DNA from: a virus
Virus record (IMG/VR): IMGVR_UViG_3300042516_001497
Coordinates: 1 to 37,476 of that record
Direction: 5' to 3' (one strand)
Length of the DNA stretch: 37,476 bases
Below are positions 12,453 to 18,000 of the stretch, in pieces. Within the stretch, counting starts at the first letter, position 1. Every line of letters begins with the position of its first letter. The notes under the pieces were generated by a model. The model saw nothing but the letters and a program-made list of their open reading frames with translations, did not search any database and was not told where the DNA came from. The translations under genes and the position numbers were made by a program.

Positions 12453-13070
12453 ATGGACATAATCAATCAAGGGAACATCGTCTCCGCCAAAGTCTCATCA
12501 CTCAAGCATCACCCAAAGAATCCTCGGAAAGGGAATGTTGATCTGATCGCAGAATCCATTCGTGTAAACGGATTTTATGGTGCCTTGATCGTTCAAAAGA
12601 GCACGAATTATGTCCTCGCTGGCAACCATAGATTGCTCGGTGCCAAGCACCTCGAAATGAAAGAGGTGCCTGTTATTTATGTAGATGTAGATGAGGTGCA
12701 AGCCACAAAGATTCTCCTCGCAGACAATCGTGTTTCCGATACTGCCATCTACAACGAAGATTTACTCTTGGAACTCTTGGAGGACTTGAATGACATGGGA
12801 GAGAACTTTGGTATTGGTTATGACATCAACACCGATTCGCTCATCAAGGACATCGAAACGAACTTAGTCGAAGCACCCAAGAGCAAAGACTTAGATGAGT
12901 TGAAGGTGAACTACGATAAGGGAATGAACGCACGGCAAGTTGTGCTCATGTACTCCGCACAAGACTACGATGCCATCGTTCTTATGCTTGAGGAACTACG
13001 TAAGAAATTCAAGATGAACTCGTATAGTGATGTAGTAAAGAAACTGCTGGAAGAAAACGAGGCGGAATGA
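12453..13070 (+). CDS. ParB-like N-terminal domain protein (205 aa)
   Basis: The ParB/sulfiredoxin-like fold is visible: 'NPRKGNVDLIAESIRVNGFYGALIV' (residues 23-47), 'VLAGNHRLLGAKHL' (GNHR at 57-60) and 'VPVIYVDVDEVQATKILLADNR'. In phages these stand-alone domains bind or cleave DNA, or hydrolyse CTP or ATP, and often sit beside base-modification genes. The C-terminal 80 residues are helical. A 4-nt overlap with the dioxygenase gene suggests coordinated expression, so a role in targeting or processing modified DNA is plausible but unproven. Confidence 0.85.
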   Translation: MDIINQGNIVSAKVSSLKHHPKNPRKGNVDLIAESIRVNGFYGALIVQKSTNYVLAGNHRLLGAKHLEMKEVPVIYVDVDEVQATKILLADNRVSDTAIYNEDLLLELLEDLNDMGENFGIGYDINTDSLIKDIETNLVEAPKSKDLDELKVNYDKGMNARQVVLMYSAQDYDAIVLMLEELRKKFKMNSYSDVVKKLLEENEAE

Positions 13071-13888
13071 TAGACATACACTTGCAGAAACGAAAAGTAG
13101 ACATAGATCAATACCGAGGTAACTACGCTTCGGCAAACCATTGCTCTATCAAGATCAAAGAACCTTGCAGAGTCTTTGTGGATGGAGCTGATACTCCTTC
13201 GGTCATCATGATGCAGATACCCGAAGAAATAGCTGGACTAGAAGACTTATTGAAGTCCATCAAGTTCAATATGAGCCATCGAACCGGAGGACTCCTGAGC
13301 AGTTCTCGGACGTTCGGTTACGCTCCTCGGCACGCAGTTAGAGGCAGGGAGGCTTGTGCTCCCGCAGTGCTCAACTATGAGCGTGAAAGTGACATAGATG
13401 TTCTAGATCAAGTTGCTGATCTTCTGAACACTATCTACAAGCAGGAGAATCCAGCACTTTACGCACAGCACGAAACGATTACTGCTGAAATCCTTGATGA
13501 ATGGAAGATCAACGGAACTGTCTTCACGTCAGGGATTATCAATAAAGACAATATGCTTCCCTATCACTTTGATCGTGGCAACTATGCTAACTGCTGGTCA
13601 AATATGGTAGTCCTCAAGAAGGCGATGACGGGAGGGCACTTGTCTTGTCCGGAACTAGATGCCTGCTTCTATTTGCGGAATAATAGCTTGCTGATGTTCG
13701 ATGGTCAGAGCATTCTGCACGGAGTAACTCCGTTCCATAAAGTAGATGAATCTGGTTATCGCTACTCAATCGTTTACTATTCGCTTCAACAGATGTGGAG
13801 ATGCTTGACCAAAGAAGAAGAACTAGAGAGAGGTAAAGTTCTACGCAGTGAACGAGAACTCAAGAAACTTAAAGCTAGAGCAGAATAG
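13067..13888 (+). CDS. TET/JBP-family 2-oxoglutarate/Fe(II) DNA base dioxygenase (273 aa)
   Basis: TET/JBP enzymes oxidise the 5-methyl group of thymine or 5-methylcytosine in DNA. The double-stranded beta-helix residues are present: Fe(II) ligands H167-x-D169 in 'MLPYHFDRGN' and H218 in 'FDGQSILHGVTPF', and the 2-oxoglutarate arginine R232 in 'YRYSIVYYS'. 'SSSRTFGYAPRHAVRGREAC' (78-97) is the N-terminal signature of the phage members. With no cytosine methyltransferase in the genome, thymine is the likely substrate (JBP-like), giving 5-hydroxymethyluracil in DNA. The substrate is inference; the family call is strong. Confidence 0.85.
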   Translation: MIDIHLQKRKVDIDQYRGNYASANHCSIKIKEPCRVFVDGADTPSVIMMQIPEEIAGLEDLLKSIKFNMSHRTGGLLSSSRTFGYAPRHAVRGREACAPAVLNYERESDIDVLDQVADLLNTIYKQENPALYAQHETITAEILDEWKINGTVFTSGIINKDNMLPYHFDRGNYANCWSNMVVLKKAMTGGHLSCPELDACFYLRNNSLLMFDGQSILHGVTPFHKVDESGYRYSIVYYSLQQMWRCLTKEEELERGKVLRSERELKKLKARAE

Positions 13889-14858
13889 GTTCGACTTCTT
13901 TGTTGACTTCTACAGGTTTCACACTGAGTTCAAACTTCATCCCGGAATGGTCTATTTGTGGCTTCCCGCACTAGCGGAGCACTTTAATCTTGATCGTGAG
14001 GGGAAGGCATGGTTAACGTGGCTCAATGGGAACACTCAGAATCCAGTCACGACTTATTTACTCTTAGAGCAAGCACCACGACTAGCCGATTACGAGAAGG
14101 CGATCAAGTTCTATGAGTCTTACGCTCCGATGCTCTCATGGGACACTGATCGTCGGCACCAGAAATTCAAGTTTGTAGAGGCGACACGGACTTGGGTGGC
14201 GAACTATGCCGATGATTGCGGAGAGGCATGGAGAAAGGCAGAGAGGCACGGCTGGAGGACATTGTGGGATTACTCTTATGGGCAACCATTCATGGGCAGA
14301 TTGTCGGCATGGAGTATGGCGGAGTACGCATTCATTCTCGGACTCCATAAAGGTGAGCCAGATGATTTGCTCTTGGAGGACAAGAACTCTTTGTCTCATC
14401 GAAACGGATTGCGTATTCTGAATGGCGGAGAAATAGATACTGTTCCTTGGCACAAGGATTCGTCCTCGAAAGTTGAAGCACGTGCTCTGAATGACTTAGG
14501 GAATCTCGTTCTAAATCAAGATAAGAAGTTCCATCGTTGGACTCTCGAAAGTGCACTATGTGCATACAAATCGTTTCACAAGCCAAACAGGAGGTATCCC
14601 GGAGTTTATGCTGATATGGCATATTATCGGATACAGTATGCCGAGGAACGTTTCGGTAAGCAGTTCAGCGTCCTCTGGAATGCTTTACGAACCTTGCCAG
14701 ATTACTTGCAACTTGAACGTTCTCCGCTTGATCCCGGACTATGTTCAGCCAAGCAGAATCATTATCTGAAGTACGGAGAAACAGTAACTATGGGACGATG
14801 GATTCCCAAGTATTTCTCTGAGTTTGATCGGAACGTAGACAAAGGTTATTATGTATAG
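13848..14858 (+). CDS. Amino acid:DNA transferase (alpha-glutamyl/putrescinyl thymine pyrophosphorylase family, 336 aa)
   Basis: This all-helical protein matches the phage family first named alpha-glutamyl/putrescinyl thymine pyrophosphorylases and later shown to transfer amino acids to activated hydroxymethyluracil. Typical features are the opening 'NRFDFFVDFYRFHTEFKL', the core 'PFMGRLSAWSMAEYAFILG' (147-165), and 'LLLEDKNSLSHRNGLRILNGG' around 174-194. The start is GTG 13848, overlapping the dioxygenase by 41 nt; no better start is seen before the conserved opening. The substrate amino acid cannot be read from sequence. Position between dioxygenase, PLP enzyme and kinase supports the call. 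Confidence 0.75.
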   Translation: MNENSRNLKLEQNRFDFFVDFYRFHTEFKLHPGMVYLWLPALAEHFNLDREGKAWLTWLNGNTQNPVTTYLLLEQAPRLADYEKAIKFYESYAPMLSWDTDRRHQKFKFVEATRTWVANYADDCGEAWRKAERHGWRTLWDYSYGQPFMGRLSAWSMAEYAFILGLHKGEPDDLLLEDKNSLSHRNGLRILNGGEIDTVPWHKDSSSKVEARALNDLGNLVLNQDKKFHRWTLESALCAYKSFHKPNRRYPGVYADMAYYRIQYAEERFGKQFSVLWNALRTLPDYLQLERSPLDPGLCSAKQNHYLKYGETVTMGRWIPKYFSEFDRNVDKGYYV

Positions 14859-15705
14859 TCCTATTCATTCTGTTGAGGGAATCTTGTTTAAAAGAGATGA
14901 CCTCTATCGTTTGCCGAATGGCGTAAATGGAAGCAAGCTCAGAGCCTGCGAATACTTGATTGATCGTGCCATTAAGAATGGTTATCGAAGCATCACTTCT
15001 GGTTCGGCTTGCATCTCTCCTCAACACGCAATCGTTTCCTCTGTGTGCCGGAAGAGAAACATTCCCCTGACGACAGTCATAGGAGGAACCACCTTAGGGA
15101 AAGCCGTAAAGACGCACAAGTCCGTGCAGATTGCTTACCACAATGGTGCTAAGTTCGATGAGATTGCAGTAGGCTACAATCCTGCTCTGCAGAAACGAGC
15201 CAAAGAACTTGCACAGAAGCAGATGGCATATTATCTCACCTACGGAATAGCTATCGAAGATGAAGCGTCAACGCAAGACTTGATCGCATTCCATAGCAAG
15301 GTTGCAGTTCAGTGTCGTAACATTCATTGCGAGCACTTAATCCTTCCATTCGGATCAGGGAATACTGGCATCGGAGTTCTCTATGGACTCTCTCTCTTGC
15401 CGTCTCCTCCCCGGAAAGTCTCTATTATGCAAATCGGCGTAAATAGATTTGCATGGGCTTCTCAGCGTCTCGAAAGGCTCGGAATCGTGAATGGTTTGGA
15501 CGGCTTGCCTTTCGAAGTAGACATTCACGTCCTCCACAATAATTACGCCACTTACGGAGATAAGAAGAAGGCTCGTATCGGAAGCATTAACTTCCATCCA
15601 ACGTACGAGGGGAAGGTGGTTTCTTACTTGAATGAACAGATGCCTGAGTTCTGGCAGAAACGAGACAATACTGTCGGCTTCTGGATTGTCGGAGGACAGA
15701 TTTGA
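14851..15705 (+). CDS. PLP-dependent enzyme, fold type II (ACC deaminase / beta-synthase-like, 284 aa)
   Basis: Fold type II PLP enzymes hold the cofactor by a lysine near the N-terminus and bind its phosphate with a glycine-rich loop. Here K29 in 'NGVNGSKLRACEYL' is the Schiff-base lysine, and 'LPFGSGNTGIGVLYG' (165-179) is the phosphate loop. 'SACISPQHAIVSSVCRK' covers the substrate region. It resembles the ACC-deaminase/cysteate lyase branch. In this cluster it probably remodels the amino acid attached to thymine (elimination, deamination or decarboxylation). 8-nt overlap with the transferase. Confidence 0.82.
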   Translation: MYSPIHSVEGILFKRDDLYRLPNGVNGSKLRACEYLIDRAIKNGYRSITSGSACISPQHAIVSSVCRKRNIPLTTVIGGTTLGKAVKTHKSVQIAYHNGAKFDEIAVGYNPALQKRAKELAQKQMAYYLTYGIAIEDEASTQDLIAFHSKVAVQCRNIHCEHLILPFGSGNTGIGVLYGLSLLPSPPRKVSIMQIGVNRFAWASQRLERLGIVNGLDGLPFEVDIHVLHNNYATYGDKKKARIGSINFHPTYEGKVVSYLNEQMPEFWQKRDNTVGFWIVGGQI

Positions 15706-16262
15706 TCTCCAAGAAATATGCCATCTATATAGTCGGTTCTCCCGGAGTCGGTAAGAGCACGCTGATGAAATCGTTGATCGCTAATCTGACGTTCTCAGAG
15801 AAAGTTTCTTTAGAGGGAACCTTCTACGGACATGAATTCGATAATGGTGTTTATCTTGGTTTATTCAGGGACGAGTATCCCGGAACAGATGGTTTAGTGC
15901 TGACTTGTGCACCAGACGCAGAGAAGTACGTCTCCAGCACGGAAGCACCAATCTTAATCGGAGAAGGCTCCAAGTTTACCTACGCACGATTCTTTCAGTC
16001 CATGACGGTAAACAGGACGCTCATTATCATTAAGCTGATCGCATCAAGGCAAGAACTAGAGGCTAGGCGTAAGCAACGGAACAGTAACCAGAATCCAAGC
16101 TGGCTTAAAGCTACTGACACAAGAATCTTCAAGGCTCTAAATAATGTCAACAATGTACAAGTTCTGACGTTAGACACGAACAAATTGTCTCCTGCGATGG
16201 TAAGTAAAATGGTCATTCGCAAGCTACCTGATGACGTGAAATCCTTACTGAATGTGCAATAG
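15702..16262 (+). CDS. P-loop kinase, probable 5-hydroxymethyl-dU DNA kinase (186 aa)
   Basis: Walker A is 'GSPGVGKST' (G12-K18-S19-T20). The helical lid 'FRDEYPGTDGLVLTCAPDAEKYV' and the arginine-rich 'SRQELEARRKQRNS' fit the phage kinases that phosphorylate hydroxymethyluracil in DNA before amino acid transfer. The start is TTG 15702 with GGAGG eight bases upstream, overlapping the PLP stop as TTGA. Kinase before transferase in chemistry but after it in gene order is common. Family by motif and context; a nucleotide kinase role cannot be excluded. Confidence 0.75.
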   Translation: MISKKYAIYIVGSPGVGKSTLMKSLIANLTFSEKVSLEGTFYGHEFDNGVYLGLFRDEYPGTDGLVLTCAPDAEKYVSSTEAPILIGEGSKFTYARFFQSMTVNRTLIIIKLIASRQELEARRKQRNSNQNPSWLKATDTRIFKALNNVNNVQVLTLDTNKLSPAMVSKMVIRKLPDDVKSLLNVQ

Positions 16263-16271
16263 TTATAAGGC

Positions 16272-16670
16272 ATGAATAGAAGAGGACGCAAGACTAAATA
16301 CAAGCAGGAGATTGTTGATAACATCTGCAAGTGGTTATCGGCTGGCAACACAAGACGAACAGCATTCACTTTAGCTGGCATCGGAGAGTCAACGTTCTAC
16401 GATTATTTGAACAATTATCCGGAATTCTCGGAGGCTATAAAAAGAGCAGAAGAGCAGGCTATTGCTCGAAACGTTCAGATAATCAACAAGGCAGGACAAA
16501 CATCTTGGCAGGCTTCAGCGTGGTGGCTAGAGCGTCGGTGCAAAGAGGATTTCGGCAAGCAAGACAGAATAGACTTGACTACGAACGGTAAAGATATTCG
16601 TACTATGTCATTGAGCGAACTGGAAGCTGAAATTGAACGACTCAAGATTATTACAGCAGAAGCGTCTTGA
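16272..16670 (+). CDS. terS: Terminase small subunit (132 aa)
   Basis: It recognises phage DNA and directs the large subunit to start packaging. The N-terminal helix-turn-helix reads 'QEIVDNICKWLSAGNTRRTAFTLAGIGESTFYDYLNNYPEFSEAIKRAEE', followed by a helical oligomerisation part ('WQASAWWLERRCKEDFGKQD') and a C-terminal coil. Usual length for the family. It overlaps the large subunit start by 38 nt. Confidence 0.87.
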   Translation: MNRRGRKTKYKQEIVDNICKWLSAGNTRRTAFTLAGIGESTFYDYLNNYPEFSEAIKRAEEQAIARNVQIINKAGQTSWQASAWWLERRCKEDFGKQDRIDLTTNGKDIRTMSLSELEAEIERLKIITAEAS

Positions 16671-18000
16671 ATGGCAGAGGCAGTACCAACTGCTTCCGTT
16701 CTCGGCTTGGTGGAAATACCATAAGCCAGCACACTACGATATGCCTCCGCACGTGATCTTCCTTTGTAAGTTGGTTGATGACGTTCTCTCAGGCAAGTTG
16801 CAGAATGTAGCCATTTCATTGCCTCCCGGACACGGCAAGAGCGACACAATTACTCGCAGATTGCCAGTCTATTGGGCTGAACGAAATCCATTGGATGCAG
16901 TAGTATTTACAGGCTACAATCAGACGTTCGCAGAGAAGCAGTTATCGAAGCCAGCACGAGAGTTCGCCGAGGAGTTAAAGATTGTAGACGACTCTAGCAA
17001 TGCTATGGCTGAATGGCAGTTGCTGAATGGAGCAAGGCTCGTAGCAAGAGGAGTAGGTTCTGCTCCTACAGGCATCAACCCGATTTCGCTACTTGTGTGC
17101 GACGACCCAATCAAGGACAGGCAACAAGCTGAGTCAGAAATAGAGAGAGATAACATCTGGGACTGGTGGCAAGGCTCTATCGTACAAAGATTCTTCCCGA
17201 GAACGAAAGCATTTGTTATCTGCACTCGCTGGCATCATGATGACTTGATCGGCAGGTTGAAGAAGCATAATGACGGAAGTTGGACGTTCATTAACCTTCC
17301 TGCTATAGCCGAGGAGAACGACCCACTAGGACGATCAGTCGGCACAGCATTATGGGAAGATGTAAAGCCACTAGAGTTCCTTGAGGAAGTACGGAAGCAA
17401 ATGGGTGAGTACAACTTCCAAGCATTATTCCAAGGACGTCCGACGCCAAGAGAGGGAGCAATGTTCAAAGTAGGGAAATTGGTTCACCTTGATGAATCAG
17501 AACTTCCGCTGATCGTCCACAAAGTGCGGAAATGGGACGTAGCGTCTACGAGTGGGAAAGGAGACTACACCGCAGGTGTTCTCTTAGGAAAAGATGAATC
17601 GAATCGTTGGTACGTTCTTGATGTCGTGAGAGGACAATACGCTACCGACGAACGTAACGAAATCATGCTTCAGACTGCTAGGAGAGACGGATCAGGAGTG
17701 AGGATAGTTGTTCCCCAAGACCCCGGAAGTGCTGGTAAAGATCAGTCGTTGGCATTCACACGTCTTCTTTCTGGATACAATGTAAAAGCAGTTAGAGAAA
17801 CCGGAAGCAAAGAAGTCCGAGCAGATGGATTTGCTTCACAAGTCAATGCAGGGAATGTCGCACTTGTACGTGCTACTTGGAATACGGCTTGGATAGAGGA
17901 GCATAGACAGTTTCCTGTTTCCACAAATGATGACCAAGTTGACGCTACAGCGGGAGCATTCAATGAGTTGGCTAACGTGAGTAACGTTTGGGATTGGTAA
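16633..18000 (+). CDS. terL: Terminase large subunit (455 aa)
   Basis: Packaging ATPase plus headful or site nuclease. Walker A is 'LPPGHGKSDT' (G68-K69-S70); Walker B-like 'ISLLVCDDPIKD' follows; 'RWHHDDLIGRL' is the coupling region. The RNase H-like nuclease has acidic residues in 'KWDVASTSGKGDYT', 'VVPQDPGSAGKDQ' and the final 'NDDQVDATAGAF'. The start is TTG 16633 inside terS with GGAAG upstream; no other start precedes the conserved 'QYQLLPFSAWWKYHKP'. Full length for a compact TerL. Confidence 0.92.
   Translation: MNDSRLLQQKRLEWQRQYQLLPFSAWWKYHKPAHYDMPPHVIFLCKLVDDVLSGKLQNVAISLPPGHGKSDTITRRLPVYWAERNPLDAVVFTGYNQTFAEKQLSKPAREFAEELKIVDDSSNAMAEWQLLNGARLVARGVGSAPTGINPISLLVCDDPIKDRQQAESEIERDNIWDWWQGSIVQRFFPRTKAFVICTRWHHDDLIGRLKKHNDGSWTFINLPAIAEENDPLGRSVGTALWEDVKPLEFLEEVRKQMGEYNFQALFQGRPTPREGAMFKVGKLVHLDESELPLIVHKVRKWDVASTSGKGDYTAGVLLGKDESNRWYVLDVVRGQYATDERNEIMLQTARRDGSGVRIVVPQDPGSAGKDQSLAFTRLLSGYNVKAVRETGSKEVRADGFASQVNAGNVALVRATWNTAWIEEHRQFPVSTNDDQVDATAGAFNELANVSNVWDW

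Follow-up and report, generated by a model that had tools for sequence, protein, structure and literature searches.

The five overlapping genes upstream of the terminase genes in the viral record IMGVR_UViG_3300042516_001497 (analysed over its whole length of 37,476 nucleotides, here called the window) very probably encode a pathway of post-replicative thymine hypermodification, at least for its first three steps and their action on thymine. They code for a ParB-like protein, a TET/JBP-type Fe(II)/2-oxoglutarate dioxygenase (TET), an amino acid:DNA transferase (ADDT), a fold-type-II pyridoxal phosphate (PLP) enzyme and a P-loop kinase. Acting on phage DNA, the TET/JBP enzyme would oxidise thymine at its methyl group and so form 5-hydroxymethyluracil (hmU), taking the role of the deoxyuridine monophosphate (dUMP) hydroxymethylase of ViI-type phages. 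The kinase would then phosphorylate the hydroxymethyl group to 5-phosphomethyl-deoxyuridine (5-PmdU), and the ADDT would swap the phosphate for an amino acid. In a fourth step, the PLP enzyme would remodel the amino acid on the DNA. Decarboxylation, as in ViI-type phages, is the most likely reaction and would yield an aminoalkyl group, for example 5-(2-aminoethoxy)methyl-dU (5-NeOmdU). This order of oxidation, phosphorylation, amino acid coupling and PLP remodelling had been proposed in a sequence-only reading of the window and gains support from the structure models, the lack of a C5-methyltransferase in the record, the exclusion of hydroxymethylases and the homology to phage ViI.

For comparison, IMG/VR was scanned with alignments of TET and of the PLP enzyme, and loci were gathered from these scans and from local profile searches. 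Among those with PLP enzyme, ADDT and kinase, 44 carry TET only and 16 a hydroxymethylase only; none carries both, and 14, mainly on short or cut contigs, carry neither (Fisher p 2e-8). The exclusion was also seen after dereplication at an identity of 70% (17 TET only, 11 hydroxymethylase only, both 0, neither 8; p 1e-4) and at 55% (8, 5, 0 and 0; p 8e-4). On the level of whole records, the hydroxymethylase family (PF00303) was found in 0 of 43 records with TET and ADDT versus 7 of 7 controls. The thymidylate synthase/hydroxymethylase family PF00303 was not found in the window record either, which is possibly incomplete. The hydroxymethylases of the loci align with CMP hydroxymethylase and thymidylate synthase, and the catalytic cysteine is kept in 16 of 16 readable cases. 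All 16 also show asparagine at a position occupied by aspartate in CMP hydroxymethylase. We take this position to be the base-reading residue, with asparagine presumably binding uracil as in thymidylate synthase. Since the catalytic cysteine and the uracil-type asparagine are both kept, these enzymes are, judged by their sequences, most likely of the dUMP type. One and the same hydroxymethyl handle seems to be made by either of two enzymes, TET or dUMP hydroxymethylase.

The transferase of the window groups with the hydroxymethylase route. In the ADDT tree it clusters with 13 ADDTs of hydroxymethylase-route loci (support 100/100). Forcing it together with the TET-route sequences costs 48 log-likelihood units and was rejected in the approximately unbiased (AU) test (p-AU 0.0033); a constraint uniting the TET-route sequences only was not rejected (p 0.32). 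The window is a mosaic, in which a hydroxymethylase-route transferase is paired with TET and no hydroxymethylase gene is present in the record. No other single argument for TET as the source of hmU in the window is as strong as this mosaic. Because of it and of the mutual exclusion, TET most likely stands in place of nucleotide-level hydroxymethylation.

The assignment of the transferase to the alpha-glutamyl/putrescinyl thymine pyrophosphorylase (amino acid:DNA transferase) family, as made in the sequence-only reading, agrees with a match to the ADDT family PF18724 (8.5e-10, 39.2 bits versus a cut-off of 26.2; all family calls were made with Pfam at curated cut-offs and with PHROGs profiles). 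Its AlphaFold2 model (pLDDT 93.5) is closest to 8z2m, the 5-PmdU glycinyltransferase gp46 of phage PaMx11 (Z 17.9, 247 aligned residues), with DNA glycosylases coming next at Z 9.5 or lower. By this match, the model indicates the PUGT helical glycosylase-like fold. The PaMx11 enzyme (8z2m, 8z2n) differs in being only about 10% identical, but a profile alignment reveals RRH and E..LC..KS motifs in both proteins. A single-sequence ADDT scan of viral contigs gave zero matches. Given the family and the fold, the transferase would use phosphorylated hmU in DNA as the acceptor of an amino acid.

The TET protein matches Tet_JBP (PF12851) at 1.6e-17 (63.6 bits versus a cut-off of 34.9). The best structural matches of its AlphaFold2 model (pLDDT 96.1) are TET2 (Z 20.0), CMD1 (19.7) and NgTET1 (19.5), all within Z 18-20, while ALKBH/FTO proteins score lower at about 15. 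The structure comparison suggested with the sequence-only reading thus placed both the TET/JBP core and the helical transferase fold in the families named there. The double-stranded beta-helix residues H167, D169 and H218 and the 2-oxoglutarate-binding R232, all four singled out earlier, are unchanged across 125 aligned TET sequences. The enzyme would oxidise a 5-methylpyrimidine in DNA, with the conversion of thymine to hmU as the proposed reaction.

Several of the related TETs stand beside other tailoring genes, and the window TET is closest to such proteins. At L007:596-2355, TET lies next to a TET-associated glycosyltransferase (TAGT, PF20691), with a C5-methyltransferase in the same record. 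In a relative with 44% identity (L010:7337-10895), ParB and TET genes are followed by genes for an ADDT (PF18724), an FAD oxidoreductase (PF01266), a 5-hmdU DNA kinase (PF18748) and a terminase-like protein; this is a TET-fed variant in which a flavin enzyme replaces the PLP enzyme, perhaps with 5-aminomethyl-dU as the product. At L009:668-2193 and L012:3135-4716, TET is followed by an FkbM-type methyltransferase gene (PF05050), suggesting methylation of the hydroxymethyl group. The substrate cannot be taken from TET relatedness, as the closest relatives accompany glycosyltransferases, FkbM methyltransferases or ADDT. The TET family phrog_6059 is labelled queuine tRNA-ribosyltransferase, a label that looks wrong.

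The P-loop kinase announced by the motif GSPGVGKST was recovered as a member of PF18751 (Ploopntkinase3; 7e-11, above the cut-off). Its proposed activity is that of a hydroxymethyl-U DNA kinase. The kinase travels with ADDT in TET-route and hydroxymethylase-route loci alike; in the kinase tree, the window sequence is unplaced on a long branch. For the kinase family phrog_800, PHROGs and some phage records give the label terminase small subunit, which looks wrong as well (for the TET and kinase families together, cf. NC_042035.1 gp2, gp4).

The ParB-like protein with its GNHR motif, another element of the sequence-only reading, matches ParB_N (PF02195) just over the cut-off (4.4e-6) and phrog_620 at 1.9e-34. 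Its closest relatives adjoin TET genes in other viral loci. Among the loci with PLP enzyme, ADDT and kinase, a ParB gene is present in 41 of 44 with TET versus 0 of 16 with hydroxymethylase. Since only the TET route needs DNA for its first step, the ParB-like protein probably helps TET to load on DNA or to choose its sites.

Several points weigh against the proposed pathway. The record is linear and may be incomplete, so a methyltransferase or hydroxymethylase gene could sit outside it. The group used in the AU test was chosen after a first tree had been viewed, and the window ADDT sits on a long branch. The mosaic is clear from the ADDT only: the PLP tree puts the window enzyme, also on a long branch, nearest to those of TET-route loci but with no firm support, and the kinase tree gives the window sequence no firm position. 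For the kinase, PF18748 (HMUDK_HMUD1, 5-hmdU DNA kinase) does not appear in the 25 best of the 36 families listed, and the matching family is PF18751. The ADDT of ViI is only 24% identical to that of the window. Finally, the nearest TET by identity (L007, 49%) is the one that adjoins a TAGT gene in a record with a C5-methyltransferase, and for this reason TET phylogeny by itself does not settle thymine over 5-methylcytosine (5mC).

The PLP protein matches phrog_3650 at 1.5e-54; the Pfam family PALP (PF00291) stays below the cut-off (9.7e-5, 22.3 bits versus 35). The predicted fold type II stands nevertheless, because a profile search of the PDB gave 1-aminocyclopropane-1-carboxylate (ACC) deaminase and D-cysteine desulfhydrase at about 1e-11 to 1e-12 (best 1.2e-12). 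The Schiff-base lysine K29, pointed out before, is unchanged in 37 PLP sequences, and the GSGNTG phosphate loop is mostly kept (G168 invariant, S169 and N171 nearly so). The homologue in phage ViI is Vi01_182 (30% identity, E 1e-33). Work by Lee and colleagues from 2021/22 reportedly describes a ViI pathway in which DNA-bound amino acids are sculpted by PLP decarboxylases, and the decarboxylation put forward here, which like the identity of the amino acid is our inference, leans partly on that work. As ViI carries homologues of both the ADDT and the PLP enzyme of the window, a ViI-like aminoalkyl thymine is plausible by analogy; it is our best guess for the final base, and one we put forward with low confidence. 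The same reserve applies to the full reading, in which a fully post-replicative, TET-initiated route ends in a thymine bearing a decarboxylated amino acid (either the ViI type of base or a new one), a TET module is combined with a hydroxymethylase-route transferase, the system is widespread in uncultured phages and the ParB-like factor directs TET to DNA.

An aminoacyl thymine could also be formed in the same way while the PLP enzyme converts a free amino acid, thereby supplying an unusual amino acid or amine for the ADDT, and does not act on the DNA-bound group. The solved PLP relatives, ACC deaminase and D-cysteine desulfhydrase, take free amino acids, and the PLP gene is missing from 19 loci with TET, ADDT and kinase, so the core may run without it. 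However, the PLP gene nearly always accompanies ADDT and kinase in the loci examined, and the ViI homologue reportedly belongs to the pathway that works on DNA-bound amino acids. We regard this alternative as unlikely.

Even less probable is an action of TET on 5mC, with the later enzymes decorating hydroxymethylcytosine. Other phage TETs reportedly act on 5mC, according to work by Burke and colleagues from 2021, and the surroundings of L007 fit such a substrate. C5-methyltransferases also occur in 3 of 43 records with TET and ADDT, and in L019. Against this, the C5 cytosine methyltransferase family PF00145 was not found in the window record (possibly incomplete), and C5-methyltransferases are absent from 40 of the 43 records. 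The L010 cluster, in which TET is joined by an ADDT and a 5-hmdU DNA kinase, also speaks for thymine. TAGT was found in 5 of 50 TET records, and in none of these was ADDT detected at the TET locus. The solved ADDT relative uses 5-PmdU, and the sister route, which TET replaces, forms hmU from dUMP. Position 240 of the TET, which we take to correspond to the cytosine-contacting histidine of TET2 and NgTET1 (H1904/H297), is leucine in the window and leucine, arginine, lysine or valine across the 125 sequences, histidine in none. This is a weak argument: TAGT-linked TETs lack the histidine too, and the residue was rejected as a diagnostic of thymine versus 5mC. The context favours thymine; the TET sequence by itself does not decide.

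The five open reading frames that had been read at 12453-16262 were confirmed at these coordinates, all on the same strand, with successive overlaps of 4, 41, 8 and 4 nt. They are followed by genes for the terminase small and large subunits, portal, protease and capsid proteins. A degraded cluster, or one with another role such as packaging by ParB and kinase, is very improbable: the cluster abuts the terminase genes and its kinase family bears a terminase label, but a separate terminase small subunit comes next, the catalytic residues are intact and the corresponding ADDT, PLP and kinase cluster of Glutamicibacter phage Montesquieu stands apart from packaging genes. The closest relatives of the terminase large subunit (window 16633-18000) are, at 46% identity, those of two Microcystis phages. 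This hints at a cyanobacterial host, but the identity is insufficient for naming it.

Genes of the candidate thymine modification cluster and its downstream border in the window
Feature	Position	Strand	Basis
ParB-like protein, 205 aa	12453..13070	+	ParB_N domain, GNHR motif
TET/JBP-type Fe(II)/2-oxoglutarate dioxygenase, 273 aa	13067..13888	+	PF12851; H167, D169, H218, R232
ADDT (aGPT-Pplase2 type), 336 aa, GTG start	13848..14858	+	PF18724, structure model
Fold-type-II PLP enzyme, 284 aa	14851..15705	+	phrog_3650; K29, GSGNTG loop 168-173, HPTYEGK 249-255
P-loop kinase (Ploopntkinase3), 186 aa, TTG start	15702..16262	+	PF18751; Walker A GSPGVGKST
Terminase small subunit, downstream border of cluster	16272..16670	+	PF20901 9.1e-8, phrog_4102 5.8e-31

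The set of TET, ADDT, PLP enzyme and kinase genes was found in 52 loci including the window, and in all of them the genes lie on a single strand. Recurrence in 51 viral loci besides the window, without a single change of strand, puts the association far beyond chance. A ParB-like gene is also present in 49 of the 52. Two gene orders are the most frequent: ParB-ADDT-PLP-kinase-TET and, as in the window, ParB-TET-ADDT-PLP-kinase. One contig binned to an Actinomycetota metagenome-assembled genome (L168:5139-9882) has exactly this second order, followed by apparent terminase genes. In a collection of isolated phages, TET matched 95 records and the PLP enzyme 347. Mycobacterium is the sole genus common to both tallies among the genera listed, and among these no isolated phage carried the full gene set. 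A DNA-level search for the cluster among isolated phages gave zero matches. Mycobacterium phage Vincenzo (L005:1-3152, NC_028934.1) has ParB, PLP enzyme and kinase but no match to TET, ADDT or PF00303; its pathway is possibly incomplete or different.

Systems of TET, aGPT-Pplase2 and kinase have already been annotated in Rhodococcus phage Tonitrus (PP978825; PMC11955845). Like the window, this phage has, ahead of its terminase, a cluster at one end that codes for ParB-like and TET-like proteins, an aGPT-Pplase2 (ADDT) and a P-loop kinase; unlike the window, no PLP-family protein was detected in the cluster, and the ADDT is just 21% identical. The gp1-gp4 of Mycobacterium phage Zemanar (Coopervirus) comprise ParB, TET, ADDT (41% identical) and kinase, followed by the terminase, but the cluster lacks a PLP gene; the annotations there are queuine tRNA-ribosyltransferase, hypothetical protein and terminase small subunit. 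Montesquieu shares adjacent genes for ADDT (46-47%), PLP enzyme (34%) and P-loop kinase with the window, but has a thymidylate synthase/pyrimidine hydroxymethylase and a second ADDT in addition, and no TET. Salmonella phage ViI carries homologues of the ADDT (Vi01_199; 24%, 4e-12) and of the PLP enzyme, whereas a PF00303 gene is present, TET has no match and the genes are scattered rather than clustered. The earlier comparison with ViI and M6 therefore holds for the ADDT and PLP homology to ViI but not for the first step, as both phages reportedly form hmU at the nucleotide level and ViI has the PF00303 gene. The class of such systems is said to have been predicted in earlier literature. According to PMC6449724, the DNA of ViI contains 5-NeOmdU. 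Three features are apparently undescribed: the joint occurrence of such a system with a PLP enzyme of the ViI type, the fact that it and dUMP-type hydroxymethylases exclude each other, and the mosaic ADDT.

The comparison of these loci indicates, on the level of sequence, that one amino-acid thymine chemistry receives its input from two unrelated enzymes: TET, which works on DNA, and a hydroxymethylase, which works on dUMP. From it follow three predictions: a viral TET active on thymine, a modified base of a class for which mass spectrometry can look, and a function of the ParB-like partner. TETs that act on thymine could serve to place handles in DNA. For the phage, the probable benefit is that a bulky amino-acid-derived group shields its DNA from restriction and other DNA-targeting bacterial defences, and the modified base is relevant to how phages evade restriction and CRISPR.

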